Assembly (NCBI GenBank): GCA_019054805.1 | Contig: JAHQIY010000016.1 | Location: forward strand, 682,001 to 746,000 | Direction: 5' to 3' | Source of the DNA: Brachionus manjavacas | Lineage: Eukaryota; Rotifera; Eurotatoria; Ploima; Brachionidae | DNA length: 64,000 bases | Shown: one piece after another, positions 2,915-63,936 of the stretch | Layout of the letters: each line of letters starts with the position of its first letter | Numbering within the stretch: the first letter of the stretch is position 1 | Position numbers and translations under genes: made by a program | The notes under the pieces: generated by a model | The model's database searches: none | Seen by the model: only the letters and a program-made list of their open reading frames with translations | What the model was told of the DNA's origin: nothing

Positions 2915-5900
2915 CTAGATTTTAGCTCTTCTAGTTTTGTCCGTGTGAAATATCATCTCTTTTTTGGCAGCTTGGTCCATTTCTTTGAAATGCTTCCACT
3001 GCATCATCAGATCAGCATGCAGCTGTTCATTGAAAAAGGCCAGAATGTCCATTATTTGCGGATGTTCCCGGGCCATTCGAAGCAAAACTCTTCTAGCCTC
3101 GGCTTTTAAATTGGTAAAAAATCCAATTGTAATAGCGGCACAGCCCTTTTCCGTATTTCCCACCGAATGTATTTCATTTAGCTCTTGATTTTCGATCAGC
3201 GAATAAACTAAAATTTCAATAACATCAATGCTCAACAAGGACTCAATCAAACAATCATTGTAGCTTGCCAATCTCCCAATAAAGTCACAAGCAATTGATC
3301 TCAAATACGTGTTGTCACTTTTGGGCACAGTGTTTGCCAAAATTTGCATTCCTATCGCTCTGGGATCTTGATCTGCATCAGTAATTAAATTGTGCAATGC
3401 GGTGACAAAAAATCCATACAGACACTTGAGTCTTTGACATTCAAAGTAAAGCTCTTTATTCCTAAGATAACTTTTCTCCATACATTGGTCAAGATTTCGC
3501 AATATTTGCGCAAAAACATGCCATCTTATCCTTCCATTAGTCATTATTATTTTTCTTAAAAAATCATCATTTTTGAAGCTAAAGGTGCATATGGCCAGGC
3601 CACTGGTTATTTGCGTATCAAGAATTTCTATTTTTTGTGCCGAATTTTCCATATCCATTGAGACGCCTTCTATCAACAAAGAAATCAATTCTTGGACAAA
3701 TCTTTCCATTTTTGTGCCCAACAAAACCTTTAATGATTTTCTATTGTTCGAATTGGTAAAACACAGCGCTGCCAAGCTATTAAAAGCTTCGCTTTTGAGT
3801 CTATTGGTTGTGTTTTTTCTGGACAATACATCTACAATTTGGCTAATTGCGCCAAGTTTTTCCAGTTGAGATTGATTTCTGGTTGAACAGTGATAACCTA
3901 TAGAGACACACATGGCTGATATGGTGCGGAGACATGCGAACAAAACAGAGTTATTTTGTGTTTTTAATATTCTGATCAAAGCTGAGGCAGCATGTACTTG
4001 GGCCAAATCGTCCTGGGTATACACAAGTCTGTTCGAGTCTGTTTCTCTGTAAGGTGGCGAGTTGGAAATGCAGGTCAAAGCTTCTAGACAAATCAAAATC
4101 AATTGTTCATTTGAGTCGAAGAGAGTATCGACAAATTTTTGCGCACCTACAGCCCTGTAGATGATACTTTTGCGATCAAAACAGTCCTGGTAGTTTTTTT
4201 CGCCAGTCAAAGACCAAAGACACAGCAAAGCCGATGTGCGGATAGAAATATGGGAGCTTTTTCGCAAAAAATTGCGAAAATTGTTCACCAATGCCGAGCT
4301 GAATGCACTGTCGATGTGGATGAGACGGTTTTGCATGACTTGGTCATCATCCGTCAAATAGCGAATGAATCCTAGCACTTGCAGTTGATATTCTCTATCT
4401 ATAAATGTAATTGCATCAAGATATGAAATTAAAAATTTTATAAATCTAACTGTGCTAAGCACCCAAATGTTTATCTCTTCTTTTTGGGTATAATTGGCCT
4501 TGGTAAAATAGTAAACATTCGAGGGAAATATAAACTTTTTTTTAAGATCATCATTGTGATAGAATACTTTGCCAATGCACTCAATAATGGTCATTTTTAA
4601 ATTTTTTACCAACAAAGGAGTAATAATATCAATTACTTTGTTGATATAATTCAATTTGGAGCTGCTAGTTCCTTCGTTTGAAAGTATTGAATTTAAAATA
4701 GATTGGGTGTCTTCATTCACAATTGAATTTTGAACATTGGAACCGCTAGACTGGTCTGAATATTCATTAAATGACAACAATGAGCTATCTGATGAGAAAT
4801 AATTTAATTTGTAAATTTCATTTTTTCTATTCGAATTTTTCCTAGTTAATAAACTCACTTGGTTCCAAAAATTCAGTATCAACTCGAATAAATTGTTGGA
4901 TTGAATAATTTTTTTATTAGTTTTACTAAAATGAGCCAAATTGCCCAAACAGGACAAATAAGCTCCAATGAACTGCTCAAAGATTAGGCCACTTTCAGCC
5001 TTGTTCACAATTCCGGCCAGTTCTCCATAAATTGTTTCTTCACTATTCATTAGCTCTACATATCTGCTAAAATTGGTATAGTCAAACAAAACTTTGATAT
5101 ATTCTATTATTATTTGGTTAAAAGCGTTTTTATTTATTAACGTCAAACAATCTTCATGCTTGCACAGAGCATCGAGTGCTTGACCAATTGAGGCATAGTC
5201 GAGCCAAGTTGATCTAGGCTCACTATTCAGATCAAAAGTTTCCCTTGATTCTTCAAAATCATCAAAAGAATCATCCAGAAAAGTTTGCTTATTTTGTCTG
5301 CGCAAAATTCCCAAACAATAGCATAAAGTGTTCCTGAGATTTTTTTTATGATTATCAATAAAGTTGATTATATATTTGAGACCATGGGAGCTTAAAAATT
5401 GAGTTCTAATGGCACCATTTTCTGCTATATTTACCAAAGTAAGCATACAACTTGCTATTGCATCTTCATTGGTTTCGTTTAGACTCAAAAAAGTTGCCAA
5501 AGATGAACCAAAGTCAGCTAGATTGAAAAGTCTGTACGAAATTATTTTATCTTTTTCAAATAGATAGACCAGTCTACTTTCGTGTGTTTCTGGCTTAAAT
5601 TTTGAGAGTCTTTTAATGACAATTGAGTATCCACGGGATAAAGTTTCAACTGTTCTGCCAATTGAGGCTCTAGTTTGATTGTCAAACTTGGTGCATGACA
5701 ACAAATTTTTTATTCGGATCGCTATGTCCGGAATAAAGTCATACATGTAAACAAGCATATCAATATTCTGTCTGATACAGGCTACTTCGATTATTCCATG
5801 GCTTGATTCTTGGAATTTTAGTTGAGCATTGAAATTAGCGCCATTTTTAACCAAAAGTTCAACCACTTCTAGATGACCCCCCAGTGCTGCAATCATAATC

Positions 5901-6030
5901 GGAGTTGTTTCATAATCATCGATAGTTTGCTGTTCGATTAAATTTTTCCCTGTTTCTCGGGCATAATCCAAAAACCGGGTTATGGCATTTGTGTAGCCTT
6001 TGTAACAAGCCTCGTGCAATGCTGACCATC
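2915..6030 (-). CDS. ANKAR-like ankyrin and armadillo repeat protein
   Basis: One long open exon codes for about 1,040 residues and ends at TAA in 2915. The N-terminal part has ankyrin repeats (WSALHEACYKGY, then TTPIMIAALGGHLEVVELLV with NGANFNA). The rest is alpha-helical with armadillo-type repeats (for example ALLCLWSLTGEKN, AFNSLAALCF, ALICLEALTCIS). This order and length fit ANKAR, a little-studied cilium- and testis-associated protein; function is not shown by the sequence. A clear acceptor (TTATCTCAAG|GA) stands just before GWSALHEA, so the exon probably starts at 6030 in mid-codon. An earlier coding exon is then expected, but I could not find one in 6083-8300. Starting at the in-frame ATG at 6082 is the alternative. 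The C-terminus is short and basic (KTRRAKI). Confidence 0.8.
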
Positions 6031-6082
6031 CTTGAGATAAAAAAAATTTACTCAAAAATCTAAATGTAAATATTTTATTCAA

Positions 6083-8304
6083 GTTTTTGTACCATATATA
6101 TTATACTCTTCCATTTTTATTTAAAGTTAAAACTAAATTTTTTTCCATCATCGTTTTATTTTAGGATTTATAAAATTTAATATATTCCAGAAATCTATAA
6201 GGTATCCGAATTTATAATCCCTGTCATTGTCACAGTGAATCCGGCTACTGGAATAAGTCTAATGGATTTTATTTAATTAAAAAAATTACAGGTAACTTAG
6301 TCAATAAAATTAAAGAAGCTTCTTAAAGGCTTCTATTTGTATTGCTTAGCAATATAATTTCTACTTGATTTCGAGGAAAACCTTAATTGAAAAATTCTAA
6401 GTTGATAAAATCGAAAATTAAAACTAGATAATGATATTTTTATTAAACTTTAATTTATTAAGAATCTGATCTTAATATTAATCAGAATCATTGATTTAAA
6501 ATAAAATTTAACTTTTACGTTTAGAATTGATTTATTCAATCATTTATAAAAAAATAGTAAATATTAAGATTTTAATAAATGGTAAATGTTAGTGGCAAAT
6601 TTGTAACTAATAGTTTATTACTCTAATTTATAATTAAAAAAGTTTGATTTATAATTTATTTATGAGCATCGATCACAAATTTAACTCAAGGAAAATTTAT
6701 ATTTCTTGAACACCGGTCGCTTAATTTTAACCCAAAATTTTGTTGTGAAAATTTTATTTTATATTCAGGATCAAAAGGAAAATTGCCTGAATTTTTTCAA
6801 AATAAAATAAGGGAATAAAAGTTCAAAAAATATTTAAAATTTTGATACTAAAAATTATTTATAACAGTAGATTTTTAGGTTTTTTATAACAATTACATTT
6901 TTATTCATTTGTTTTAAAATTTTTCCTATAAAATGAGCTAAAATAGATCCAAATAAATTCATTGTCAAAAAATTTGAAAGCAAAACTAAAAAATTTTTTT
7001 TGATCATTTTTTTAGATAAATATTCTTTGCAAAATTTTTTGTTTATTCGAAATTACTCTTTTACTGAACTCTCTGTATTTTTATTAGATGGAAATTTTTT
7101 TCATTAAATTTTTTTTTTATTGCACAGTAATTTCAGATTTAATGAACAATCTACGTAAATTTAAAGTTGTACATTATTTATCTTCATATCTAAATCGAGT
7201 CTTAGCTCTTTCAGATTTAAAATAAATGAAAAAATGAGATTTTACAACACATAATTCACATAATTCATAAACGATGAGATAATGCAGAGTTGGTCCAAAA
7301 TGCGTAATTGGCATAACCAATTATTGAAAATTATTTTCTAAAAATGAGTATTTTTCAAAAAATTTATCAAAAATAATTTTTTTTAATTTAATTGCTTTCG
7401 TCCTATCTTATATATAATCCTTAAATCTTTTTATTTAATAATCAATCTTTTTTTTCTTGAACAGTCAAACATTCTTTGTATTTTTTTAAATGTAAATATT
7501 AAACTTAAAAAGCTTTGAGAAATATAACTAAAAAACTGAGAAGTTTTACATTTTACAAAGATCAATTTAAGAAAATTTATGAAAAAAAGATAAATCAAAT
7601 CTTTAGAATGCTATATTTTTTGGTAGAAAAAAGTTAGAAAAAAAATTAAAGATCTTTTAATTTCATAATTAAAACAAGTTTTAAAAAAATTTTTAAATTC
7701 AAATTTTTTCTTTTTTCTGTCAAAATAATTCTCTATTTTGATACTTAGTTTAATTTTTATGGCCTTTATTTTACCATATTTTGATTATTGCTTTAGTCTC
7801 CTATGCTATAAGTTAGCTAAAAGTTATTACATCTCTATCTTTAAACTGATTTAGACTTTTAAAAAGCTTTTTTAAATTTCAAATGGGAACAAACTGAATT
7901 TTTGACATCGAGGCTTTTTAAAATTATTCAGAGTTGTTTAAAAGTCACAAGTCTCAAGTCAAGTCCAAGTCCGGACTTTAAATTTTTGAATATTGCGAAG
8001 ACATTAATGCTAAAATTGCAAGAAAATTCTGTATCTGGCAAATCTATTGCATTAGATAACCCAAGAGTATAAAATTTTTTTGATATGAAGCCTTATCTAG
8101 CAAATTTAAAGAAAAAAGTCCGATCTTGGACTTTTTTTTGGGACTTAAAAACAGCTCTGAAAATATTTAAAATTTTTTTTAACAGTTAAAAATCTTTTTT
8201 CCATCAAATCAACTAAATAAAAGCCTCTCGAATTTTTAGAAGATTTTGAGTCAGTTTTAAAATTATTTATTAATAAATTTCAAAAAAAAAAATACTTCTC
8301 GAAA
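6083..8304. other. AT-rich gap, possible first exon(s) of ANKAR-like gene
   Basis: This is about 2.2 kb, mostly A/T tracts. A small island of normal base composition at about 6176-6276 is open on the plus strand for roughly 30 codons (with IIPVIVTVNPATG), without a recognisable match. Near 7935-8000 and 8115-8135 there are short runs based on AAGTCCAAGTCC, similar to 41150-41205. Confidence 0.5.
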
Positions 8305-9330
8305 TCAAATATAATTTGAATAGACAAAGTTTTCAAATATATTTGGCTGTGTTATCGGACTTATAAAATAAAAAAAAGAAAATAATCCAAAAAAGTACAT
8401 TATAACAATAAAAATTCTTGTCTTTCCATTTAACTCATTAATAAGGGCGTCAAAGTCCGGAAAACCCATTAGATTGCAAAATGAATGGGCCACGAACGAC
8501 GCAAAAAAGCTGCCAGTTCTCAAAAATAAATACGATGAATAGACACCAAAACTGTAGGTATAGCCAAATTGGAAGAAGTGTCGCATTATCAAAAATTTAA
8601 GACTCAATTCTTTGGCTTTGTAACCTTCGTATATGTGATGTAAATGAGCCGTGCCAAAAAATAAAGGTGTTATTAGAACGCTTTTTGACCATGTCATGTG
8701 CCCGACCAATAATGGAAGCATACAGCTACGAAAAACGAATTCCTCAGTTAGAGTACTCACTACATAGTTTCTTAAAAAATTCAAATCAAAAAATAAGTAT
8801 TTTAGACTAACTAATTTAAAATTTCTAACAAGTGAAGCAAAATTTTTTTTTAAAAAGTTTATAAAGTTCTTTAAAGAATTTAATTCATCAGTTGTCTTAA
8901 ATTTATATGATGCATTGGATTTTGTGGTATTTTCAAAATGTAAATCAGACAAATATTCGTGATATTCGATGAGTAAATTTTGGAATACAGGTCCTAAGAA
9001 CAAAAGTGTAGTCAGTCCAAGTGAAACCAGAATGGAAAAAAGCAGGTTAATCAAATCAAAGCGTAGACCAGTCCATTCGTGTATAGTGTAGCCATTTGTA
9101 TCACTGCTGGTCGTGGAAATCTCATAAAGAATTATAAAACTAATTACAGATGACAATATAACGCTGATAAAGCGACGTTTGATTACAGCTGGTTCGTTTC
9201 GTTTATAGCGATTTTCTCGGCTCCATAAATAGAGGCTAATCACGTAGAAAGAAGCCAAAAATAGACAGACTAGACAACTTGAAGTTAAACTTAAATCTTG
9301 GAAATTTATTTTTTCTTTAAAAAAAAACAT
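8305..9330 (-). CDS. RCE1: RCE1-type CAAX prenyl protease 2
   Basis: A single exon codes for 341 residues (human RCE1 has 329). RCE1 is an endoplasmic-reticulum membrane protease that removes the last three residues of farnesylated or geranylgeranylated CAAX proteins such as Ras. The family signature is clear: LRNYVVSTLTEEFVFR with the catalytic Glu pair, then FFGTAHLHH with a catalytic His. RTGSFFASFVAHSFCNLMGFP follows with the second essential His and Asn. Several hydrophobic segments flank these. The start is the ATG at 9330; the frame stays open upstream, but only through the end of mRpS24. The gene begins 59 bases after the mRpS24 stop on the same strand, which suggests a shared transcript or trans-spliced unit. 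Confidence 0.9.
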   Translation of the reverse strand: MFFFKEKINFQDLSLTSSCLVCLFLASFYVISLYLWSRENRYKRNEPAVIKRRFISVILSSVISFIILYEISTTSSDTNGYTIHEWTGLRFDLINLLFSILVSLGLTTLLFLGPVFQNLLIEYHEYLSDLHFENTTKSNASYKFKTTDELNSLKNFINFLKKNFASLVRNFKLVSLKYLFFDLNFLRNYVVSTLTEEFVFRSCMLPLLVGHMTWSKSVLITPLFFGTAHLHHIYEGYKAKELSLKFLIMRHFFQFGYTYSFGVYSSYLFLRTGSFFASFVAHSFCNLMGFPDFDALINELNGKTRIFIVIMYFFGLFSFFYFISPITQPNIFENFVYSNYI

Positions 9331-9389
9331 TTTTTGTTGAATAAAAATAAATAGTTGAAGCTTTTTTTTCTTTTTAATTTTAGATATGT

Positions 9390-11190
9390 CTACCAAGTTC
9401 TAAAAACAAGATCATTCTTATTGTAAATGGTTTGCACTTGGATCTTAACAACACACTTGAGCCAGCTTGAGAGGAGTTCTTCGGCGTAGCCGACTAGAAA
9501 ATAAACTTTTTGAGAATAATTTTGTTTTGGCAGTTTAACTAGAAATCCAATGTTAATTGTGTTGAATCTTCGCTTTATTAATATTTCCGATGCGAATAAA
9601 CCGTGAAATGTTCCGAATAAAAATTTTCGGATCAATGTGTCTTCGGCTGCACTCTCTGCTGGTCGTTTCCCATTCAAAAGATTGGCTAAATTAAATGTTT
9701 TAAATTTTTTTTGAGATAAATTTTAAAAAATTTTCAAAATCTCTAATGGAAACCGATTTTTGAACAAATTTTTCTAGTTACTTTATAAAGTTTACTTTAA
9801 TCAATAAAAAATTATAATTTTTTCATTATAAGAGTTAATATTCTTTTAAATAAAGTTATTTTTTTCAGTTATAAATTTGATTTCAAAATGCAATTAAGGG
9901 TTTATAAAAAATGTGATAAATTTCAAAATGATAAACAATTTTTGAACTTTTTGAACATGAAAATATAATACATGATCGCTTTTAGACAAATAAAAATCAA
10001 AAAGTCATTTAATTATTTATTTTTTAAATATCTTTATCATTTATTTTAATTTATCATTGAATTTCAATTGCAAGTTTATCCTATTAGCCTAAATTTCAGT
10101 ATCTGTATCTTCGCATAGATATTATCTGTGTTTTTAATTAAAAAATCAGTTCCATTTTAATATCTATGCGAACAACGATAAACATTGATATTTTTTAAAT
10201 TGTATTAAACATACATCAATATCAATGGAATATATTCTTTTTACATCATGTTTTTAAAAATAAAATTCACAAAAAAAAATAGATCTATCTATTTTATAAT
10301 TGTTAAAAAGAATGGTATACACCTGGATTGAATAATATAACCCGAAACGAATCAAGAATAATCTTATTGACTTTTCCTTTATCAATAAAAAATATTTATC
10401 TTTTATTTAATTTTTTTGTGAATTTTGATTTTTAAATATCAAATAAAAAGAAGATTTTTTAATTAAATTTTCACTAAAATTACAAAAAAATTTTTTTTTC
10501 AAACATTTCATCCATGCTCGAATTCATATAATCTATGTAAGCATACACATTGATGTATATTTAATAGAATTAAAAAAAAATCTTTATAAAAAAATAAATT
10601 TATATCTTCTTAAATATTTTTAAATCTCTAATTTTCATGTTAAATGAAGAGAATTTTTGCAAAATTTAAATTTTTCATATTTCAAAAATTTAATATTGCA
10701 AGAATATACAAAAGTTACAATGATTTGTTTAATTAATTTTAATGTTTAAAAATGCAATGTTACTACAAATGATGAATCAAAGCTTTTGATCAAATAAAGA
10801 TTAAAAAACCCTTAAAGCATTGAAATTTTTAAGAGTAATTAAAATTTTTAAATTTTCTTTTTCAATTAGTTCAGTTCAATTATTCAGAGCATGTTTTTAA
10901 TCAAATTTTTTATACTTACAAGTGTTCCACGAGTTCCAACTTTTAGTAACACCAATTTTCTCAGCAAATTGACTCTGTTCGTAATTGAGCAGTATTGAAT
11001 GATCAGTGGTTTTCTTGGGACGCGTAGCTCGTCTATACTTTACTAGCTTGCTGTTTAAATTAAAAGTATAATTGGTACGTATCGTACTATTGATTAAAAT
11101 TGGCTGCTTCAGAAAAGCATGGCTTATTTCGGTTTTGGGCCTAAAGAGCAAAGAACTCGGAATTTTACTGATTTTTAATAGTGTATTCAT
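9390..11190 (-). CDS. MRPS24: Mitochondrial ribosomal protein S24 (uS3m)
   Basis: Two exons, 11190-10920 and 9685-9390, give 188 residues. The junction (ACT T|GTAAGT to TTTAG|CC) restores the family block SWNSWNTSNL. The protein belongs to the small subunit of the mitochondrial ribosome. Exon 1 has a basic mitochondrial presequence and then LLNYEQSQFAEKIGVTKSWN. Exon 2 has DTLIRKFLFGTFHGLFASEI and YFLVGYAEELLSSWLKC, all matching animal mRpS24 in order. The intron of about 1.23 kb is A/T-rich. An acceptor-like TTAATTTTTTAG ends 8 bases before the ATG. The ATG lies 75 bases after the GTF3C6 stop. Confidence 0.92.
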
Positions 11191-11265: not shown

Positions 11266-11631
11266 CTAGTTTTGCTTCTCTTCCACAAATAAACGCGTTA
11301 GAACAAGCTTTTTAAATGATTTCCCAAAGTATTCGTGCTCAGTTTTTTGTTGCTGGGATTTTTTCTCTTCGAAATACAAAAAAGTTCCAATATTGTTAAG
11401 ATATTCTCCTTGATAAAGTCTATTTCCTATTTGAATTATTGGATTCGGCTTTGTGATCTCTATTGACTTAAACTGATTACTAAATTTTTCGCAATATTTT
11501 GCGTCGTCTAAATCTGTAAATTGAATGAGAACTAAATTTTCTTGTTCTATCTCTTCTTCCTCTGAGTCAACAACTTCCTGGTTATTTTCCTTTATTTCGT
11601 TTTCTAAATTTTGATTCAAATTTTGGTTCAT
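11266..11631 (-). CDS. GTF3C6: General transcription factor IIIC subunit 6 (TFIIIC35-like)
   Basis: An intronless frame of 121 residues starts at the ATG in 11631. It matches the small TFIIIC subunit GTF3C6/Tau55-type fold: an acidic N-terminal tail (VDSEEEEIEQE), then LVLIQFTDLDDAKYCEKF. IQIGNRLYQGEYLNNIGTFL and FKKLVLTRLFVEEK follow. In human GTF3C6 the same blocks appear in the same order. TFIIIC binds internal promoters of tRNA genes for RNA polymerase III. This is the first gene of the three-gene minus-strand group continued by mRpS24 and RCE1. Confidence 0.88.
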   Translation of the reverse strand: MNQNLNQNLENEIKENNQEVVDSEEEEIEQENLVLIQFTDLDDAKYCEKFSNQFKSIEITKPNPIIQIGNRLYQGEYLNNIGTFLYFEEKKSQQQKTEHEYFGKSFKKLVLTRLFVEEKQN

Positions 11632-11885: not shown

Positions 11886-12474
11886 TTAAATATGAAAGTA
11901 TTCGATCAATTTAGACTGTGCGATCGCATCTTCATTTGATTCAACATGGTCATTTGATCTTTTCCCTCTTTTAAGAAAAATATTAAAAAAACAATAAAGG
12001 AGGAAAAAATTTAAATTTACATTTGGTCAAAATCGAATCTTCCATGGCCTGGTAGAGATTCTTGAAACCTTAAGATATAAAAATTTAAGAAAATATTTAA
12101 GCTGCAAAGAAATTGTACATTTTTTTTAGTAGAATTTTGGCCTGAATTTCCATCAATCTAGCATCAACATCGCTTCTTTTGTTTCTGTAGAAAAAATGAT
12201 TAAAATCTAATTAAAATAATAAATAATTAAAGTTTTTACACTCTTGAATGAGTCATTATTTCCAAAATTTTTTGGCTTAAAATAAGCAATTGAAAATGTG
12301 TATTTTAAATTTTTAAATCAATATTTACTCAAGATCTTTCTCGAACTCTCCTAATTCTTCCATGAACACTTGTTTTCTAATTTCTTTGGAGAGCTTTGGG
12401 AAGGCCATTGATCCATTTATTGCAAAAGCTGCCACTAAGACGACTAAAAATGCCAATTGAACTGAAGCTTTCAT
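11886..12474 (-). CDS. Amidated 35-residue neuropeptide precursor, copy A
   Basis: Five exons (12474-12329, 12275-12240, 12184-12119, 12068-12021, 11967-11886) join in frame to 125 residues. Residues 1-24 are a signal peptide (LAFLVVLVAAFA core, likely cut after SMA). A short acidic/helical spacer follows, then the cleavage site NKR at 62-64. The product spans residues 65-99: it begins SDVDARLMEIQAKILLKK and ends SLPGHGRFDFDQI. It is followed by GKR (100-102), where the Gly supplies a C-terminal amide. The last 23 residues are an acidic tail. Every junction is GT..AG, and three of them create the codon that matches copies B and C. Expected role: a secreted hormone or transmitter acting through a GPCR. 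The family is not recognised. The inner KK could be a second cleavage site. Confidence 0.85.
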
Positions 12475-12522
12475 ATTGATAGTTTCGAAATTTTTATTTA
12501 CTTAAATTTTGAAAATCAATCG

Positions 12523-12530
12523 TATTTATA
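12523..12530 (-). promoter_or_regulatory. TATA box of peptide gene copy A
   Basis: TATAAATA on the minus strand lies 49 bases before the ATG of copy A. At normal spacing this would leave a leader of about 20-25 bases. Copies B and C have the same motif about 80 bases before their ATGs. Confidence 0.5.
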
Positions 12531-13576
12531 TTGATTCCTAGCCATTCTGTAAAAGACAACTTTTATTTTGGTGAATATCAAAAACAAACTTTTGTTTTAA
12601 TGCAAATTTAAAATTTGTCTAAATTAAATTTTTATTCTTTTTTGCTTTTAATTAGCCATTCTAAGTGAATATATGAGCTTAAAATCGAGAATAAATTGAA
12701 TACTAAAAATTCGCCTTTTAACTTCTCTCACGAAATATGCGTCACAAATTCCCAATATTGAAGATAAGCATTCACATATAAATGCAAATTCTTACTTACC
12801 ATTACCTACTATAAAACATTCATTTTAATATTCATTTATTTAAATGAAATTTTATTTGAAAATATTGTAGAAGCTGTCTATTATTAGTAAAAAATTTATT
12901 ATACGAATGATTTTTGCTGATTCTTTATATTTATCTTAAAAAGATTATTTGATGCTTTTTTAATTTAAATTAAAGTAGAATAAAATTAATTGGATTTATG
13001 ATTTTTATTTTAAAATCTAAAATTTCATGATAGTTTACAAAATTAAAATACAAAAAATTTCATTTCTTGAAAAAAGCTGGTCAGTTTTCGGATTGATGCA
13101 TGAAAAATATGTTTGATATGTATATATTTATTAATGACATCAACTAATGTAAAAATGTAGCAATAGAATTGATGGTAGAAAAGGGCTCAGATATTCAACA
13201 TGTTAGGTGTCGCAGCATAACTCCTACAATTAATTGAAAGTAAAAATTAAAATTAAAATTAAATTAAAAAAAATTAAATGATTTTTTTTTTAATTTTAGT
13301 ATAAGTAATAAAACATACTACAACACTTTAGGAGCTGGTTAATTTTTTTTTTATAAAGTTAAAAATACGCATTTTAGCATTAAAATTACCAAAAAGAGTG
13401 AGATCATAACTGAATTGTAACATAAATCTTTTAAGGATCTAATATTTTGATTCATTAAAATTCTTTTTAAATAACAAACTTTTTTATTATTTATTAGGGT
13501 TTACAATAATTAACATTATATTTAGTAATTTAATTTTTTTTTCCAAAAATAATTATTTAAAATATGTATATTTTTG
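12531..13576. other. Intergenic gap between peptide genes A and B
   Basis: The stretch is mostly A/T. A strong acceptor near 13225 (minus) opens a very short frame ending SYAATPNMLNI before a stop near 13190. Without an upstream partner I do not call it a gene. Confidence 0.4.
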
Positions 13577-14154
13577 TCATTGACTCTGATTATTTTCCAA
13601 GTCATGAGAATAGCTTGAATCAACCGACCGTTTTCCTCTTAATAAACAAAAAAAATTAAATGATTATTAATAAAAATTAATTGGCCATACAACTCATCAA
13701 AATCAAATCTTCCATAACCTGCATAAAAAATTAAAATTGAATCTTGAAAGATAATAAATAAATATTAATTACCAACTGGCATTTCAGCTAGTCTAAAAAA
13801 AAATTATTTTTATTTAATAAAATTCAATCAAAATAGTCTTACGCTTTGGCTAACAAAATTTTTGCCTGTAACTCTAATAATCTTGCTTCAACATCGTTCC
13901 TTTTTTGTCTAAAAAAAATAAATATTGTACATATAATTTTTTTATTTTACCTATGCGGATCAAAATTAGAAGTCTTTCTTGTGTTGTATTTAACATTCTG
14001 ATTATCTTTATTTGAATTTCTTTTTTTTTAAAATTTAAAAAAAATTTTATTCTTGGATAATTTAAATAAACTACATTTTGAAAGTCGATATACTTTGGAA
14101 AACCATTCCGATCAGAACAACACTGATTATAATTTTTGTCAAAAACAATCTCAT
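13577..14154 (-). CDS. Amidated 35-residue neuropeptide precursor, copy B
   Basis: Six exons (14154-14075, 14019-13951, 13908-13843, 13792-13773, 13718-13691, 13637-13577) give 107 residues. Signal peptide at about 1-23 (LTKIIISVVLIGMVF). The spacer is rich in Asn and Lys, and the site QKR is at 51-53. The product (54-88) begins NDVEARLLELQAKILLAK and ends VGYGRFDFDEL; GKR at 89-91 supplies the amide. The tail is 16 residues. Length and order match copies A and C. Unlike A, the last part of the product is split by an extra intron: its 20- and 28-base exons together equal the 48-base exon of A. The leader intron acceptor (a run of A, then AG) is weak, so the 14019 border is the least certain. 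Confidence 0.83.
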
Positions 14155-14233
14155 TTTTTCCTAACTTCTTCTCTTTTTATTTTGATTTAATTGACAAAAT
14201 TTATGTTTGAGTCCCATGGATTCTTTTTAGCCA

Positions 14234-14240
14234 ATTTATA
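14234..14240 (-). promoter_or_regulatory. TATA-like box of peptide gene copy B
   Basis: TATAAAT on the minus strand lies about 80 bases before the ATG of copy B, in the same relative place as in copy C. Confidence 0.4.
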
Positions 14241-14610
14241 CCTAAATTTCTTAATATAAATTGATAAATATTTGAATTTTTATTTTTAAATTAACTTTTC
14301 TTAATAAACCAACGTCATGTTTTTGTAAAGAATATTTTTGATATTTTCAAATCAATTGGGCGACAAAATCACTCAGTAAATACTAAAAAAGAAGTCACTT
14401 GACTTAAACACAAACTATCACTCTTATTTGTTATAATATTTATTTTGGTATTGATTTTATAAATAATCGAACTTCTTTATTGTTATTCGCCTCTTTAGAA
14501 CTCATGATTATATAAACTTTTTTTTATAAAGACACGATTCTTCTAATTAGTTTTTATTTCGTTACTTCGTAATTATAATTTTTCCAAACTAAATATTGAT
14601 GTAATGGAAT

Positions 14611-14695
14611 TCAACACTTTGCACACATTTTTCTAGCTTCTTCGGACTTGAATATTTGCTTGAATCCATCCAAATCTCTTTTATTTCCCGATTTA
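14611..14695 (-). CDS. Candidate terminal exon of a small secreted peptide
   Basis: A strong acceptor (TTTGTTTTAG) is followed by 27 open codons and a stop: KSGNKRDLDGFKQI then FKSEEARKMCAKC. It has a basic cleavage site (NKR) and two Cys near the end. It lies between peptide genes B and C and is far richer in coding-like sequence than its surroundings. No upstream exon or signal peptide was found in 14700-14940. It could be the remains of another peptide gene, or a real gene with exons I missed. Confidence 0.3.
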
Positions 14696-14943
14696 CTAAA
14701 ACAAACTAAAAACTCTTTCAATCTTTTAGATAATCAAGCTTTCTTTTTTAACTTACAGTCAATTTTTTTTTAATAAAAAATTAGACAATTTAAAAAAGGA
14801 AAACATTTTTTTCAAAATTTTTTTATTAAGAATCATACATTAAACATATATAAAAATATATCTAAGTATAAATTGAAAAACTTTTCATCGGGTTGAATGC
14901 AAGGATATGATAACTTAAATCAGTGCAAACAGTTTATTTGTTT

Positions 14944-15519
14944 TCATGAAGATTCTTCTCCAAACTTTAATGGGTCTATAAACCTTTTTCCTCTTTAAAA
15001 ATAAAATTATTTGGTTTCAGTCAATTATACACAAAAAGAAGTAGATACATTTTTTCAAAATCAAATTGACCATGTCCAGCCGGCATTTGTTGATAAGCTA
15101 AAAAAAATCATTAAAAATTTTCTTGCCACCAAATGACTAGCAGACCTTTGAGAAGATCAATTTTAGCTTGAAGCTCCATTAGTCGAGAATCAATGTCACT
15201 TCGTTTATATCTTTAAAAAAAAATTAATAATTAAATATGTTTTTTCAAATAACACCTTTGATTGTTCAATATAGTGTTTATAATTTCTTCACTTTAAAAA
15301 AATTAGAAATCATTCAAATTTGTATTAAATTTTACTTCAATTTTTTATCAATTCTGTCAATTTCCATTAATAATTCCTGTCGTTTGATATTTTTTTGATC
15401 AACTCTTTTAACAATGTTAAGAAATATTTTATTTGCCATTAAATTAACTTTTACCTATCGATGTATATTGCCATCGAGCATGAAAACATAAAACAAAATA
15501 AAAGAACTTGTTTGAGCAT
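14944..15519 (-). CDS. Amidated 35-residue neuropeptide precursor, copy C
   Basis: Six exons (15519-15455, 15404-15336, 15291-15256, 15210-15146, 15097-15049, 14992-14944) give 110 residues. Signal peptide 1-17 (VLLFCFMFSCSMA). The helical spacer (RQELLMEIDRIDKKLNEEI) resembles that of copy A. The site YKR is at 58-60. The product (61-95) begins SDIDSRLMELQAKIDLLK and ends PAGHGQFDFEKI; GKR at 96-98 supplies the amide. The tail is 12 residues (FIDPLKFGEESS). The 36-base exon before the product has the same length as exon 2 of copy A. The intron inside the product sits one base earlier than in A and B (65+49 against 66+48 bases). Confidence 0.85.
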
Positions 15520-21468: not shown

Positions 21469-22831
21469 TCAAAATTTTCCCGGGTTAACTAGGTTATTAT
21501 TAGTGCTGATTAGATGCTGAGGTGCTATTTGTTGTATGGCCGATCCGGATGAGTTGTTCACCAGCGCTGTTTGCTGGCGAGCTGGGGCCAATGCGGCCGA
21601 ACTCGGCTGACGCTGAGCGGCCGCATTAATCGCCTGATTCTGTTCGCCATTTGCCTCTTGGTTAGACTTGTTCGCATTCGAGCTATTAGCCTTAATTAAA
21701 TAAATTGATTTCAATCTGTTAAAAAATTAGATTGCATTAAATTTTTGAATTTTTTTTTTTCTAATATTTAAAAAAATGTATTTTTAATTTATGAATAAAA
21801 ATGAAAAAAAAATTTTTTTCTACCTCTAATTAAATTAGAAAATTTTTTCTAAATCAAAAATGGAATAAAAAATTAAAAATTTTTTTTTTTCATTTTTGCC
21901 TAAAATTGACAAAAAAAAAAGAAAAAAAAAGAAAAAATGTAATTACAAATTTAAGGTTGTTCCAGTCGAACATAAAGTCGTAGGTGAAGCCTTGACGATG
22001 GAACAAATTTCGGAATAGTTGTCTAAGGTATTGGTAGTCAGGTCGATCGTCAAATCTTAGCGAACGGCAATAGCCGAGATAATTGCAGAATTCGGTGGGA
22101 AAGCCCTTGCACAGCTCTTCGACACTAGTGGCCATTTTTTTCTCGCTTATCCTCTCGTACTTTTGCCGCTTGGTCTGAGCCTTGAGACCCTGCCAGGGCA
22201 GCGAGCCCCGATTGAAGTACATGAACACGTAGCCGAGCGATTCGAGATCGTCTCGGCGGCTTTGCTCTACACCCATGTGCGTGTTGATGGACGCGTAGCG
22301 CGCAGTGCCGGTCAAATTTTTGTTTTCGCGGTACGCGATGTGCTGGTGAGTGCGCGGGTCGCGGAATTTTTTCGCCAAACCAAAGTCAATTATGTACACT
22401 AGGTTGCCTTTTTTGGCCAGACCCATCAGAAAGTTGTCGGGCTTAATGTCCCGGTGAATGAAGTTTTTCGAGTGGATGTATTCAATGCGGCTAATGGTCT
22501 GGTCCGCGAGCAGAAGTACTGTCTTTAGGCTGAATTTGCGCGAGCAAAAGTTGAACAGGTCCTCGAGACTGGGCCCGAGCAGCTCCATTACCATCACATT
22601 GTAGTCGCCCTCGCCTCCGCACCACTTCAGCGCCGGAATGCCCACTCCGCCCTGCAGCAGCCTGTATATCTTGCTCTCTATGTGCAACTGCGGGTGCTTG
22701 GTCTTGGTGCACTCGAGCTTGATGCCCACCTCCTCATTGGTCACTATGTTGTAGCCCAGATAGATGTCGCCGAATGAACCACTGCCGATCTTGCGACCTA
22801 AACGGTACTTTTGACCTACCCGAAGTTCCAT
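21469..22831 (-). CDS. CSNK1: Casein kinase 1 delta/epsilon
   Basis: Two exons (22831-21947 and 21690-21469) give 368 residues. CK1 delta/epsilon is a Ser/Thr kinase acting in Wnt signalling, the circadian clock and vesicle traffic. The first 295 residues are a full kinase domain, starting [20 protein letters not shown]. Lys38 is in [14 protein letters not shown] is the catalytic loop, DFGLAKK the metal-binding motif, and [12 protein letters not shown] the substrate-recognition segment. The domain ends at FDWNNLKF as in CK1 delta. The second exon, taken from the acceptor ATTTAATTAAG|GCT, codes for a Gln/Asn/Ala/Ser-rich tail ending NLVNPGKF. The tail is shorter than in vertebrates (about 120 residues there). 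The kinase exon is strikingly GC-rich compared with its flanks. Confidence 0.93.
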
Positions 22832-27953: not shown

Positions 27954-30900
27954 TTAAGAAGAGCTTAGCTTTATTACGGCTTGATTTAGTGAATTGTAAT
28001 TGGGACTGTTGTTGATGACGCGAAATCTAGTGGGCACCTTGGCCACATTCGGCGCAGAGTTAATCACCCGAATGTTGTTCATTTGCTTGGGTATTTCGGC
28101 ACTCTGACTATTGCCCAAATTAAGTATGATCACTTGTCCGTCCTCATTTGTCTGGTTTACCACGAAATAGTCGCTTTGTGGTGCCGTCTGATTTGTCTGC
28201 CCAGGCATCTTGGAGATGATGGTGGAGCCTTTGGCTATAGTCGGCATCTTTCCAATAAATGGTCTCACTTTGGTCAGTTCAACAGTGGTGCCAGTTTTGC
28301 TGCGCGCAATCGAGCTATTCGAGCTTGCTTGACCATTTAGCTCGTCTTCATCGGGCAGCTTTCTTTTCAGATTGGGCGCCGCTTCCTCGTAAATTATTTG
28401 TCTTATTGACTGCTTGGGCTCTTCGGCCTGGTCGTCGGCTTTTAGAGAAGCGGTGGCCGCAGCCGCAGCTGTTGCCACGGCAACCACAGCCACCGACGAG
28501 CTTGTTGACTGAGATCGACTTAGGCCTGTGGCCACCGGCGCCGTCGAGCATGCGGCCGAGTTGGTCAACTGATCTTTGGTGATTATTGGCGACCAAATGC
28601 CAAAAACAACCGTGAAAAACAGGACCAACACAAGTAGCAATGTGCCAAATTGATTTGAGTTTGTTTGAGATTGATTGAGGTCAGTTATTGTCTGACTGAA
28701 CGTTTGAAGAGACTGGCTGGACGTGTCCGTATTGGACAAGTTGCACTTCATTTTTTCCAGTTGTAAAAGCAAATTTTTGTTGTTCAACTCCAAGGCGTCC
28801 AGCCGCTTTTTGAGCTCCAAATTTTCATTTATGTAATTTTCCATTTTGCGCTCCAGCGAGTCCACGTACTCCTTTTTCTTGCGTCTACTCTCTTGGGCCG
28901 ATATTTTGTTTTTGATTTTGCGCCGGATTTTTTTCAGGATTTTCTCCTCGCTCTTGGTCAAAGGCAATTGTGTGGGCACTTGGTGTCCCTCTTGGACCAG
29001 AGTGCGTTTTTCTTCTTCGGTGAGCAAAATGGGCCCGGACGACGGCAATTTCTAAACGCGCAAAAGTTAAATTTAGCAAAATGGGAGAAAACATTTCCGC
29101 CATTGTCAATTGTGCCACAAAGAGCAAAAATTTCAAATTCAATTAGCTTTTTTAGTTTTAGCATTTGTCCTCTTTCTCTGAGTTTGTCCTAGAGTTGGAA
29201 GACAAATTTTTGCTCATTTTGAAGCTCTTGAGGCAAAGATTAAAAAAATTTACTTTTTTTTATTTTTAAAGTTTGCCTTAGACCTTAAAAATGCTCCTAA
29301 AAGGGTTAGTACCATTGTAAAAGATCAATGGCAACCTTTAAATCAAAGAGCTGTACTTTTTTTTAATCTTTGCCTCAAGAGCTTCTAAATGAGCTTTAAT
29401 TTGTCTTCCAACTCTAGGACCAACTCCTTTAACATCTGCAAAATTCTGCAATTTGATGATTTTCTCAAATAGCTGTTTGCAGAGTTTTTGCAGAAATTTA
29501 GTTTGCTCAATTTAGTTTGAGCTAAAAAAGCAACTTCAATTTAAAATATTTTTTTTGTAAAATTCACATTGGCGCAAGTTTGCATGGTAGACTTACACTA
29601 AGACTGACAAAAAAAGGCCAGCAGTCGTCGTCCAAATTGTTCAGGCTTGACTTTGAGCTTGCCGTGCTCGACTTGCACCTGCTGGATGACTTCGAGTGAA
29701 ACGACTGACTTTTTGTCTGCTTCAAAAATGAACTCTTCGAAGAGTTCTTTGACTTGGTGGCATTAGCGCTGCTCTGCGCCTCGCTCTTGCACACAGATTG
29801 ACATGACTGATTGCTTTCGCTGTCCGAGCCGAAAGAACTGGGCGGACTGGGCGGCAAAAGTGCACTTTTGTTCTTGCTCTTGTCCATGCCGATTAGATCG
29901 GATGGCTTGGCCGAACTTTGAGCGTGCTGAATGTGATAAATTTGACCGGGTGTCTTTTGTTCAATGGGGTTTTGGGCTGGCGATGACAGAGCCGAGCTGG
30001 ACGCCGAACTAGGCGAACAAGACACCGTCTCCAAGTCGTACTTGACTGCTTGGTGGTCGAGGCCAACGCTGAGCATGCTGGAGCTCGACAAACCGACTGG
30101 TTCTTGCAGGAGGCAAGGAACAAAGTCAAATGACTGCGCGTGGTCCTCGGGCGAAACGGAAACAGACGAGTTGTAGTCGAAATTTTCCTCTTGGAAGTGG
30201 CTCTTCAAATTGGTCTCTAGGCTGTTTATCAGGTCGTTGGGGCATATGGACGAAAAGCAGCAGTCCATGTCCAAATTTTCTTCTTTGATGTCGTCCTTGA
30301 TTGAGGCAGTTAGGTTTTCGTCTGAGAAAAAATTGTAGCCATTCCACATGTCCATGTCGTTTGGCGACAATGTATCTATCAAAGCTGACGGGTCCATGTA
30401 GGGTTTAAACTGAAAAAAAAATTTTTTTTTAAATAAAAAATAATCAGCTTTATTAATTTTAATAGTTCAAGAGAAAGAAAAGAGAGAGAGAGAGATAAGA
30501 AATAGTAGAGTTTATGGCCGAGTGTGTAAAACAAGTGATTAAGGGCTACGGCGAGCTAGATTTCATTTATTATTATTAGCTGATATGAAAAAAGAGGTTA
30601 GAGCGAAGAAAACGTGCATGGGATATTCGAAACGAGAGATGGTCATCTATGTTTGTCCAAGGCAAATACGGAAATTTGGACTTAAACTAAATATTTTAGT
30701 ACATAAAATAAATTTTTTCTTTCTTTTTTTTTGTTGTTTATTCAAAGATTAACCTGGGCCTTAAATATTAGTAATTTTTGTTGTTGTTGTTGACCGGGCC
30801 TCATTCATTAGACTAATAAAAATTCCGTTCTAGTTTTTCTTTTGAACAAATGAGAAATCAATCAAATTTATGTTATCTTATCTTTTAGTTGTGATGCTCG

Positions 30901-56743: not shown

Positions 56744-59700
56744 ATGAAAGAGAAGTCGAAGAACGCTGCTCGCACTCGACGAGAAAAAGAGAACGCCGAG
56801 TTCTACGAGCTGGCGCGATTGCTGCCCCTGCCTAGTGCCATCACTACCCAGCTGGACAAGGCGTCAGTAATACGCTTGACAACGAGCTATTTGCGCATGA
56901 GATACGTATTCCCAGAAGGTAATTGCTTCACTTATTGAATTTCACTTCCTCCCTTTCCAACAGACCTAAGTCACGTAGATCAAACAAGCAGAATACTTAG
57001 GAAAATAAAAAATTTGTCGAACATGCTCAAGTTGAGGTGACGTACGTAAATTCCACTGTTGTTTGTTTAGCATGGTTTTCCAAAATCAATTAATCGATCA
57101 CATTTTGTACTATTAAGAAAAGCCGATTAGTAGGAAACAGGAAGTTCTCTTCTTCTTTTTCGTTTTTTTTTCTTAGGACGTTTGAACTTTATTGCGTAAG
57201 AGAAAAGTCAAAAAAAGTCAAACATCCTTTTCAAATAGACCGTCGTCTCTTTGAAATACTATTAAGATATGGCTACTCTAATAAATAAATATTATCTATA
57301 TAATTTTAGGATTTTTTTTCTATATTTTAGAAATTGTTTCCGACCATTGGCACTTCTTGTGTTTAAAATTTTTACATCAACTTAAATTCAGTTAAACTAA
57401 TTATGTTATTAACTACTTTTATTGAATATTTAATGAAAATTGTTTCAAAAAAATAAAAAAAGCTAAAATAGAAAAAAAATTGCATGCGAAAAAATATAAC
57501 TCAAAAAATTTCACATCTTATAAGCATGAAATTTTTATTTTAAGAATTTTGTTTTTTGAAAAATATTTGGGAGTAATCTCCCGCACAGTTTCGACTACCA
57601 TACTAAACCCATAATACCTTCTTTTCAGTGTATGTGTTTCCAAGTTTTAAAATGATTTAAAATTCAGCAACCATATCTATCATAAATAAAGACAAAAGCC
57701 TTTTTCAATCAGAAATTTTTTAATTGCATGTTTAATTGACCGAAAATATTAAAAAACTCTAATAAATAAATAGTAAAGATATTTCGTTTTTTTTTAAAAA
57801 AATTGGAGAGCCAGTATTTTATATTAATTTCAAATTAAAAAAAATTTTGAAAATTAATAATTTTATTTAAAGACATTATCGGCCAGAAAAATATTCAAAA
57901 AAAAACATTTTCAAATAAAATAAATTTTATCTAAACAATTTTTAAATTAACGACTTTTGCATCCCTCCATTTCTACATTTTATATGAATTTAAATTCAGC
58001 ATTAATAATTTTTATTTTTTAATAATAATTTGGTTTGTAAGACAAAACCACTTTTTCAGTTTAGTTTTTATTTTATTTAAATTTAAAAGATAATTTAGGA
58101 AAGGGGAATTTCCAGGGCAGCTCCGAATAGCATAGCCTTCTTTTCAGCCCTCTTGTTAGCAATTTTAATCTTACAAAATTTAGATTATAAAAAAAAATAA
58201 AAATAAATTAGGAATGTTTTTTTTTTAATTTTATAATTTGTATTTACATTGTTAAGTAGATTCAGCTATGTACTTGGCAGGGAAGGTGTAGTATCGAATG
58301 GAGTTTTGTATTTTGAGTTGTTTCTGTTAGTGCTATGAACCAGATAGTCCTTTTTCAATTTAATGTTAACAAGTATTTTTTTGAATGTTAAATGGCCAAG
58401 CGAAAATATTTACAGTTTGTCTGAAAAAAAAGTTTCTAATAAAACCCTATATTATTAATTAGATTGAAATTTTGATAATAAAAATAACAAAAAATAATTT
58501 TTATTTCCTTTAAACAACAACAACAACAAACCGGTTGAGTACAATTTTTCATTTCTCTTGAATTTAATTTTTTCGGAAAATCCAATACTAACTTGATAAA
58601 AACATAAATAAATCTGTCCTAATTATTTGGTCCAAAAATTTTCAAAAAAAAAAAACAAAATTGTAACATTTTCTATTCATTTTAGGTCTAGGTGAAACAT
58701 GGGGAACCATGAACAACACGTTGACTCCAATTGAACGCGAGATTGGGTCCCATTTACTTCAAGTAATTAGCAATTTGTTTCTGTTAATCAAATAAATAAG
58801 AGTCTAATTTGATGTTTAATTGTAGACTTTGGACGGCTTTTTATTTGTAATTGATAAAGATGGCAAAATAATGTACATATCAGAAACTGCTTCGGTTCAC
58901 TTGGGGCTGTCTCAAGTGGAGCTAACTGGCAACAGTGTGTACGAGTATGTTCATCCGGCCGACCACGAAGAGCTCAATCAGCTGCTTAACTTAGCGCCAC
59001 CTCCCCAATACCTGAATCCGAATTTGAGACAAGATGTAGAGATTGAAAAATCATTTTTCATGCGGATGAAGTGTGTGCTGGCCAAAAGAAACGCCGGACT
59101 GACTAACGCCGGCTACAAGGTCATCCACTGCAGCGGCTATTACAAAGTGCCCTTTCAGAGTTTAGACCAATCTTCTTACGAAACCGGCTATTCAACGCCC
59201 TATCTAGTCGCGTTCGGTCACTCGCTACCTTCTAGTTCAATAACCGAAGTCAAAATGAACAACAACATGTTCATGTTCAGATCTAGTCTTGACTTAAAGC
59301 TCATATTTCTTGACTCCAGGGTTTATCAACTGACCGGTTACGAGCCACAAGACCTGATCGAAAAGACGCTTTACCAATACATACACATTCAAGATTTGCC
59401 AAGTATTAAGCTTGCTCATCAAACACGTAAGCATCTATTTTCTCATATTTTCTATTTTAAAAAAAAAAAACCTGATTTTATTTTTCTTTAAAATTGAACA
59501 AAAATTGAAATCTAAAATACTTAAAGTTTTATGCAACCTTATTTTTAAAGTGCTGTCAAAAGGCCAAGTAACAACCAAATACTACAGATTCATGACCAAA
59601 GATGGCGGATGGATATGGATGCAGAGTTGTGCAACAATTGTTCACAATAGCCGCTCATCACGTCCCCATTGCATAGTCAGTGTAAATTATGTCATTACTG

Positions 59701-60977
59701 ATACGGAAGCAAATAGTTTGCTGCTTTCAGTCGAACAGACAATGACTAGGGAGTCGATATTGGCAAGTAGAAAGAGCGACGATGACATGGACGAGCGTAG
59801 CTCGAAGCGGATCAAGACCAGCTATGAGTACGAGGAGGACAATGATGACGACTATTACAACTCGGATCAAGAGGACCAACAAACCGAACTGAACAACTAT
59901 CCAGCTGAATACTACAACTTCGACCCGAACAACTTCAAAACATTTTCCAGCTCTTCCTCATCGTCGGACACATCAATAACAAAAATGGGCAAAAATTTGT
60001 CCCTGTCTTCATCTTCATCGTCACTGTCGTCAAGTTTCATAGACAATTCGGCCAAAAAACTAGACACATGCAAAACAGAGCCGATTATACTCAAGCCCGA
60101 GTCAAAGCTCAAAGCTTGTGATTTGAATAAAAAAATGGAAAATTCCAAAAATTTAAAAGCCACCAAACTAGATCTGAAACAAAAACGAAAATTGTCCTCT
60201 AATGAAATTAAAACCGGTATTAAAACAAATTCAAAAAGTTCAATTAGCGAAAACAAAAGCAAAGACAAGCTGAAACGCAACAAAAGCGACATGTCGTGTG
60301 GCGGAGAGGCCAGCTCTAATTTTGTCCTGCCAAACGATGCCTACAATTTTGCTGGCGCATCCTATCCGGACTCGTATCAACCGGCGGCATACCTGAATTC
60401 AGACTACTATCAATCGAATAGCCATTTGATCGGACACTCTCAATTTAGTGCATACAATTACCAATCGGCCTATGCCGGACACCTAAATCCATACACTACC
60501 TCAAGTAGTTATAACTACAATCAACAATTTGCAGCCAGTGACACGAATAGCTTAAGTGCAGATTATCAAACAAATGGATATGGTTCTACATCATCTGCGG
60601 TGGCAGCGGCTGCAGTGGCCGCCGCAGCGGCCGCAGCCTTGGCCAACAATAACGCTTCTTACGACCAAGGATATCAATCAAGCTCCGGCTTCAAATCAAA
60701 CTTGTACCCCAATGAGCCAAATTTGTCTTACTACTACAATGCCAATGGCTCAGCTAATTCAACCTTTTACAATCTAAATAATTCTAATTTAAATTCTGCA
60801 TACTACTTGTCCACATCGTCATCCACATCACCATCCGCTATTTCATCCGTTTCATCTACATCGTCCTCTACTACGACTATTTCACCGCTATCAAATGAAT
60901 CGACTTCTAATCAGACTTTTCTGACCAACAACAACTCAACCAAACATCCACAATACCAGCATCAAGTTGTGTGTTAG
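56744..60977 (+). CDS. SIM: Single-minded bHLH-PAS transcription factor
   Basis: Four exons (56744-56918, 58686-58762, 58826-59426, 59551-60977) give 759 residues. Single-minded pairs with ARNT/Tango and directs midline nervous-system fate in insects. The bHLH domain ([20 protein letters not shown], then [20 protein letters not shown]) is nearly identical to vertebrate SIM. PAS-A starts near 85 ([20 protein letters not shown]). PAS-B follows ([19 protein letters not shown], then [12 protein letters not shown]) and the block [20 protein letters not shown]. The C-terminal 400 residues are species-specific: an acidic stretch ([11 protein letters not shown]), Ser runs, a Tyr/Ser/Asn-rich region and an Ala run ([16 protein letters not shown]). 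The second intron is 63 bases; the first is nearly 1.8 kb. Confidence 0.95.
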
Positions 60978-63035: not shown

Positions 63036-63936
63036 ATGAATTTCAGTGATTTTCCCAAATTAAATGACTTTTCGCTAGACAAGAGAAAAGCATTGATTTG
63101 TTTGACCGTAGCCTCATCAATAACCCTGATTTATATTTATAAAAAAAGAAATAAAAATTCCTTCAAAAATAGTAAAAAAATTTAAATAAAAATTTCATGC
63201 ATTATTTTTTTATAATCTAGATAATGAAGAAGACAGCGTCATAAGAGGAAAACAAACAATTGTTGAAATAAAGGTCCCGAGCGAATGCACTGGACAATTG
63301 ATCGGACCTCAAGGACAGAATATAAAAGAAGTAAAAACTTTACTTCTTATTACTTGGTTGTTAAAATCGTTGAAATCAAGCTTCAAAAGAAAACTAACAC
63401 TAGAATGAATTTTAGAGACAAAATTTGCACCATTGATCCCCTGATGTCAGAGGCTGATAAAGATTCAAGTGAAAATATTTTGGAAAATCCAGATCGTATT
63501 TTAGTTATAAGAGGCTCAAATAAAAACGTCCAAAATGCAGAATTTGAAATTAAAAAAATGATTCTTGAATATCCTATATCTATTACAAAGGAATTCTTTG
63601 TTCCCCAATATGCGTGTGGAAGAATAATTGGTAAAGGAGGCTCTACAATAAAAGAATTGTCTAGAGCATCAAATTGTAAGATTTCTCTGATAGAAAGCAG
63701 AGAAATCTCTAATAAAGATAATTTGGACCAGCAGAATGTTACATCGAAAGATCTGCTTAAAATTGTTCGAATTAAGGGATCAATTGATAAGATTTCATTT
63801 GCCGAAGTAATTCAAGAAATTATTTAAAAAATAAATATTAAAATTTTTTAAATTAAATCTAAAGGAGTTAATAAGATCCAAAATAAAAGAAGAAGAAGCA
63901 TCAAGAGAAAGAAAACAGAAAGGAAAATTTTACTAA
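63036..63936 (+). CDS. TDRKH: TDRKH/Papi-like tandem KH-domain protein
   Basis: Four exons (63036-63171, 63221-63330, 63381-63806, 63865-63936) give 247 residues. TDRKH/Papi sits on the mitochondrial surface and takes part in piRNA 3'-end trimming. A short N-terminus is followed by a membrane segment (ALICLTVASSITLIYIY) and basic KKRNKN, as in TDRKH. KH1: VEIKVPSECTGQLIGPQGQN with the GPQG loop. KH2: FFVPQYACGRIIGKGG, STIKEL, with the GKGG loop. The last exon (ELIRSKIKEEEASRERKQKG) fits the linker after KH2. The reading then stops at 63936, and no tudor domain is seen. It may lie in exons past the window, or the protein may be KH-only. Confidence 0.82.

Follow-up and report, generated by a model that had tools for sequence, protein, structure and literature searches.

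Class B (secretin-type) G protein-coupled receptors (GPCRs) of protostomes include PTH-type receptors, and one ligand of the iPTH/PXXXamide/QSamide family, the insect parathyroid hormone (iPTH) of Tribolium castaneum, activates iPTHR1/2 with half-maximal effective concentrations of 63 and 413 nM; its system affects cuticle maturation and fecundity (PMC7224569). The iPTH precursor consists of a signal peptide, a KR site, the conserved peptide, GRR and a C-terminal extension, with strict amidation (PMC7224569), and the Tenebrio precursor has 110 amino acids (PMC9552230). The oyster has several family genes, one of them complexly spliced, and members such as PYKIamide and PIKIamide; expression of its family peptides is seen in gonad, digestive gland and nervous system, and a PTH-type receptor is reported to be female-gonad specific (PMC8398477). 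For spiralian PTH-type receptors, QSGamide/iPTH peptides have been named as the likely ligands; up to 2021, no receptor assay in Lophotrochozoa had confirmed activation by QSamide-type peptides (PMC8557429). Here we analysed a 64,000-nucleotide stretch of DNA assigned to Brachionus manjavacas (contig JAHQIY010000016.1, positions 682,001 to 746,000; hereafter the window, in whose numbering all positions are given), which carries three tandem genes, A, B and C, between 11886 and 15519. We consider it highly probable that this tandem set consists of paralogues belonging to the protostome iPTH/PXXXamide/QSamide family and encodes ligands of a PTH-type class B receptor.

An initial annotation had described these genes as a tandem trio, each with a signal peptide, a KR site, a 35-residue product, GKR and a short tail. 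A base-by-base rebuild from the raw sequence bore out this organisation and reproduced the span exactly, with all three genes on the minus strand in the same orientation (A 11886-12474, B 13577-14154, C 14944-15519). The 113-amino-acid precursor of copy A is spread over four exons, and copies B and C have six exons each and precursors of 107 and 110 amino acids, so that the lengths here (107-113) compare with 110 in Tenebrio. All 13 predicted introns (42-144 nucleotides, nt) are GT-AG, with a GC content of 10-29% versus 30-35% in the coding exons. The gene structure and the processing sites are directly supported at the level of sequence, from which the splice junctions and expression are predicted. 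The mature products would be SDVDARLMEIQAKILLKKMFQESLPGHGRFDFDQI (A), NDVEARLLELQAKILLAKALAEMPVGYGRFDFDEL (B) and SDIDSRLMELQAKIDLLKAYQQMPAGHGQFDFEKI (C), 35 residues each, with KR upstream, GKR downstream and tails of 23, 16 and 12 residues after GKR, respectively. Signal peptides were assigned by hydrophobicity alone, the best 10-residue Kyte-Doolittle means of the leaders being 3.29 (A), 3.09 (B) and 2.63 (C). The iPTH layout of signal peptide, KR, one long peptide, dibasic amidation site and C-terminal extension is thus found in all three precursors.

The residue-level match lies at the C-terminus. The antigen used for Tribolium iPTH was Cys plus its C-terminal 14 residues, TMPVGGGRIDPGRI-amide (PMC7224569), and we compared this 14-mer with each product, ungapped, anchored at the amide and scored with BLOSUM62; 1,000,000 shuffled versions of the Tribolium sequence served as background. 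Copy B (EMPVGYGRFDFDEL-amide) is identical at 7 of 14 positions and scores 32, a value that no shuffle reached; the score of 28 for copy C (QMPAGHGQFDFEKI-amide, 6 of 14 identical) was reached by 4 shuffles, that of 14 for copy A (ESLPGHGRFDFDQI, 5 of 14 identical) by 1,651, and the summed score of 74 by a single one. Since iPTH was chosen after weighing several families, these counts need a discount, yet a factor of tens leaves the outcome for B and C unchanged. As controls we used 15 amidated scallop peptides of at least 14 residues (PMC5996578 section 40), dropping shorter ones and two non-amidated ones of sufficient length, elevenin and one LRF peptide; the summed scores of the 15 ran from +2 (pleurin) down to -84. 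When the Tribolium 14-mer was scanned over the 47,319 stop-free unspliced 14-mers of the window, copy C came first, with 25 versus 16 for the next. This C-terminal match is also directly supported by the letters themselves, and it is carried by B and C. Taken alone, the copy A peptide is a weak match, and its place in the family follows from paralogy, its identity being 63% to B and likewise to C (38 columns, GKR included).

The initial annotation had regarded the peptides as a new family, a view that it said a clear match to a known family would end. On the evidence at hand, namely 14 printed Tribolium residues and descriptions of other members, there is such a match: the C-termini of B and C agree with Tribolium iPTH in the amide register, the layout is as described for that family, and the Ser-Asp that opens A and C may correspond to the one described near its N-terminus. 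Its account of real tandem genes with amidated 35-residue products stands, as does its guess of a class B GPCR ligand, with the receptor pairing in the host suggested by analogy; the novelty of the family is not supported. The P-x-G-x-G pattern that it gave for the C-terminus holds for B and C and fails in A, which reads L-P-G-H-G.

That the genes nevertheless form a new lineage-specific family, with an iPTH-like C-terminus due to chance or convergence, seems unlikely to us. The three precursors had no Pfam family above the curated cut-off and the three mature peptides no Pfam match at all, the profile of the three copies gave no matches in PDB, the Pro expected at position -4 is absent and the family comparison is confined to the C-terminal half, all of which would fit such an origin. 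Absence from Pfam and PDB, however, says little for short neuropeptides, the anchored match of B and C lies far beyond the shuffles and beyond all 15 control peptides, and the precursor layout agrees with iPTH, as may the Ser-Asp.

Several observations do weigh against placing the genes in the iPTH family. Position -4 from the amide, where Pro is mildly conserved in iPTH/PXXXamide peptides (PMC7224569), is Phe in all three copies, so that the eponymous residue is missing; we did not take this loss as disqualifying, because the family's authors found the Pro not strictly kept. Ser-Asp, highly conserved near the N-terminus of insect iPTH at alignment positions 7-8 (PMC7224569), forms residues 1-2 of A and C, in a relative register that is uncertain, and copy B begins with Asn-Asp instead. 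In the window scan with the Tribolium 14-mer, the unspliced, intron-cut copies B and A ranked 9 and 28, and the spliced score of copy A (14) is below those of three unrelated window stretches (16). The amphipathicity of residues 1-22 is not above that of shuffles, 3,155 (A), 4,588 (B) and 4,784 (C) of 5,000 reaching it. Finally, the residue-level comparison covers the C-terminal 14 residues of one member, that of Tribolium, the other members being compared through written descriptions.

Length and amidation would suit class B ligands generally, and a PDF/cerebrin-type peptide or another ligand of this class (CRH, calcitonin/DH31, glucagon/PACAP or vertebrate PTH) was therefore weighed; we regard this identity as very improbable. 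A C-terminal EKI-amide resembles cerebrin, a likeness rightly called faint in the initial annotation, and PDF/cerebrin was rejected on a scallop cerebrin/PDF best score of -5 and a sum of -27 across the three copies, versus +74 for iPTH. PDF is about 18 residues long. Calcitonin/DH31 was rejected as well, since four scallop calcitonin-type peptides summed to -51, -59, -74 and -84 and this family ends in Pro-amide, versus Ile or Leu amide here. At the N-terminus, a shuffle test against nine class B hormones, PTH and PTHrP among them, found no significant likeness to any of them: human PTH, anchored at the N-terminus, was the nearest, its score reached by 904 of 20,000 shuffles (PTHrP, 2,676 of 20,000), and none of the nine fell below 4.5% of shuffles, before correction for nine tests. 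The lack of a Pfam match for any of the three mature peptides also speaks against these other class B families. A bolder proposal, which we consider decidedly doubtful, is that the genes represent a lineage-specific iPTH expansion in a little-sampled Spiralian branch, with a Phe-Asp-Phe C-terminus taking the place of the Pro motif, and that the N-terminal segment S-D-x-[DE]-x-R-L-[ML]-...-K has retained vestiges of the activation segment of vertebrate PTH(1-14); this would make visible, among the ligands themselves, a kinship of protostome iPTH and vertebrate PTH so far argued only from receptors.

The three copies share an intron layout, with one phase-2 intron ahead of the KR site and another interrupting the final peptide codon, immediately upstream of GKR. 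The peptide-internal intron has an identical position in A and B and is displaced by 1 nt in C, and an extra intron in copy B cuts the C-terminal half into exons of 20 and 28 nt, whose sum of 48 nt equals the length of copy A exon 3. Over the 38 codons of product and GKR, the proportions of synonymous differences (pS) are 0.81 (A-B), 0.82 (A-C) and 0.74 (B-C), and those of nonsynonymous differences (pN) are 0.24, 0.22 and 0.27. Synonymous change has thus come close to saturation or passed it, whereas the protein has altered little. Old paralogues that are maintained show this pattern, and by it A, B and C look like coding genes that are old and have been maintained. That they are pseudogenes or open frames arisen by chance, without functional peptides, is an extremely improbable explanation: the exon junctions are predictions, copy C has an unusual donor and copy B requires two micro-exons, but the common splice layout, the identical product length and a pS well above pN in all three pairs argue for functional genes. 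Profiles of the N- and C-terminal product halves were run against the window translated in six frames (4,794 stop-free segments). The N-half profile found the three loci at 2e-14 to 1e-13 (next best 0.81) and the C-half profile at 4e-7 to 3e-6 (next best 1.4); as the profiles were built from the copies themselves, only the gap to the next match is informative. No fourth copy rose above the inclusion threshold in the 64-kb window.

The exons were all defined by the gene rebuild, with hydrophobicity added for the leader exons, and all lie on the minus strand. In copy A, exon 1 (12329-12474) encodes leader peptide and propeptide; exon 2 (12119-12184) the NKR site and the N-terminal half of the product, which starts at 12174; exon 3 (12021-12068) the C-terminal half FQESLPGHGRFDFDQ; and exon 4 (11886-11967) the last base of the Ile codon, the GKR amidation and cleavage site, the 23-residue tail and the stop. 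Exons 2 and 3 were also recovered in the profile scan, and exon 3 in the Tribolium comparison. The product part of exon 2 contains an internal KK, which could be a weak additional cleavage site.

Copy B begins with a leader exon (14075-14154), followed by a propeptide exon of 69 nt with both ends in phase 2 (13951-14019) and by exon 3 (13843-13908), which carries the QKR site and the N-terminal product half (product start 13898) and was also found by the profile scan. The two micro-exons, exon 4 (13773-13792, 20 nt, LAEMPV) and exon 5 (13691-13718, 28 nt, YGRFDFDE; seen also in the profile scan and the Tribolium comparison), complete the C-terminal half, and exon 6 (13577-13637) holds the end of the Leu codon, GKR, the 16-residue tail and the stop.

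The leader exon of copy C (15455-15519) precedes two propeptide exons with both ends in phase 2, exon 2 (15336-15404, 69 nt), the least certain exon of the model, and exon 3 (15256-15291, 36 nt). Exon 4 (15146-15210) encodes the YKR site and the N-terminal product half (product start 15200) and exon 5 (15049-15097) the C-terminal half YQQMPAGHGQFDFEK, both also recovered by the profile scan, exon 5 containing the top-ranked window 14-mer against Tribolium iPTH; exon 6 (14944-14992) has the last base of the Ile codon, GKR, the 12-residue tail and the stop. The peptide-internal intron (15098-15145, minus strand) has the odd donor GTCTGC and a GC of 0.29, above that of the other 12 introns. The propeptide (15256-15404, minus strand) contains a second KR-flanked stretch, NIKR followed by ...LLMEIDRIDKKLNEEIINTILNNQRY and then KR, spread over the 69- and 36-nt exons. 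Both exons have phase-2 boundaries on either side, so that the reading frame would survive the skipping of either one. By analogy, symmetric propeptide exons such as these, of 69 nt in B and of 69 and 36 nt in C, would permit splice variation resembling that of the oyster.

The surrounding DNA has a low GC content of 22-39% in 4-kb steps, which agrees with a rotifer origin without counting as evidence for it. Directly downstream of copy A lies a TFIIIC subunit 6 domain protein (11266-11631, minus strand), and Pfam further identified an ankyrin-repeat protein (2915-6100) and an Rce1-like CAAX protease (8308-9399), both on the minus strand. More distant genes encode a protein kinase (21893-22831, minus), casein-kinase-1-like by eye, a bZIP factor (27957-29051, minus), a PAS-domain protein (58826-60974, plus) of NPAS type, whose closest PDB sequences are NPAS3 (E 6.1e-42) and HIF-type proteins and which marks the window as animal DNA, and a KH-domain protein (63267-63824, plus).

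Other database matches were discarded. Sub-threshold matches in the Pfam scan (DUF3496, E 0.0037; NB glycoprotein, 0.0097; DUF3793, 0.035; FliT, 0.044) were attributed to composition, falling largely in the leader, the propeptide and the Leu/Lys-rich N half. In PDB, where copies A and C were searched singly, A gave 0 matches and C gave 7, to proteasome subunits (best E 0.42), which were taken as chance. A search of viral contigs returned 141 pattern-matching stretches and no relative, and phages, searched with copy B only, gave no match. Among prokaryote genome contigs, 144 stretches yielded one locus, L001, in an Acidobacteriaceae metagenome-assembled genome, where PAGHGRFDFEHVGDR (L001:3719-3802) is strikingly like the peptide C-terminus but lies inside an unrelated 137-amino-acid bacterial open reading frame and was taken as chance.

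In the open-access literature, motif strings of the A, B and C peptides had no match, and strings of the Tribolium C-terminus led to PMC7224569 and one unrelated energy paper. The survey PMC6425005 did not recover PXXXamide, and its yield for three Rotaria species was a small number of families, a point that PMC8557429 also makes. For Brachionus plicatilis an APGW/AKH precursor has been reported in PMC10730642, where neither 'QSamide' nor 'parathyroid' occurs. We found no report of a rotifer iPTH/QSamide in the open-access literature; supplementary tables, outside the search, may list one.

If A, B and C are iPTH family members, each precursor would enter the secretory pathway via its signal peptide and be cut after KR and at GKR, the exposed Gly being converted to an amide, so that each gene would yield a single 35-residue amide, secreted as a hormone or neuropeptide. 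The Tribolium case suggests that at least one PTH-type class B receptor of the host may respond to these amides; a reproductive or digestive role there is our guess from described systems. These are real genes of a known kind, and what is new is a diverged, triplicated ligand set. Under this assignment, a protostome PTH-type ligand would be present, with three diverged tandem forms, in a genome unlike the usual mollusc, annelid and insect sources and, if the DNA is indeed from a rotifer, in Gnathifera, called under-sampled by PMC8557429. The peptides would offer defined molecules for testing spiralian QSamide-type action on PTH-type receptors, and the PXXXamide name motif would be unreliable for finding members, for which M-P-x-G-x-G-[RQ]-x-D might serve better.

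One of the closest known systems is Tribolium iPTH, with which the genes share the layout, the M-P-V-G-x-G-R-x-D C-terminal pattern (copy B), an Ile or Leu amide end and possibly Ser-Asp (A and C); they differ in the Phe that takes the place of Pro at -4, in the use of GKR where Tribolium has GRR, and in being three in tandem. Like the oyster peptides PYKIamide and PIKIamide, copy C ends in K-I-amide, and both species have multiple genes, whereas the spliced oyster PXXXamide gene yields several products (PMC8398477) and a single amidated peptide is encoded per gene here. The QSamide/QSGamide and PXXXamide precursors of molluscs, annelids, nemerteans and brachiopods have, by their text description, the same organisation (PMC8398477, PMC8557429); the Pro at -4 is lost here. 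PDF/cerebrin peptides are likewise amidated and presumed class B ligands, but have a negative C-terminal score here. Vertebrate PTH, PTHrP and TIP39 are linked to the family through a presumed orthologous receptor class, with less than 12% identity between iPTH and the vertebrate ligands (PMC7224569).

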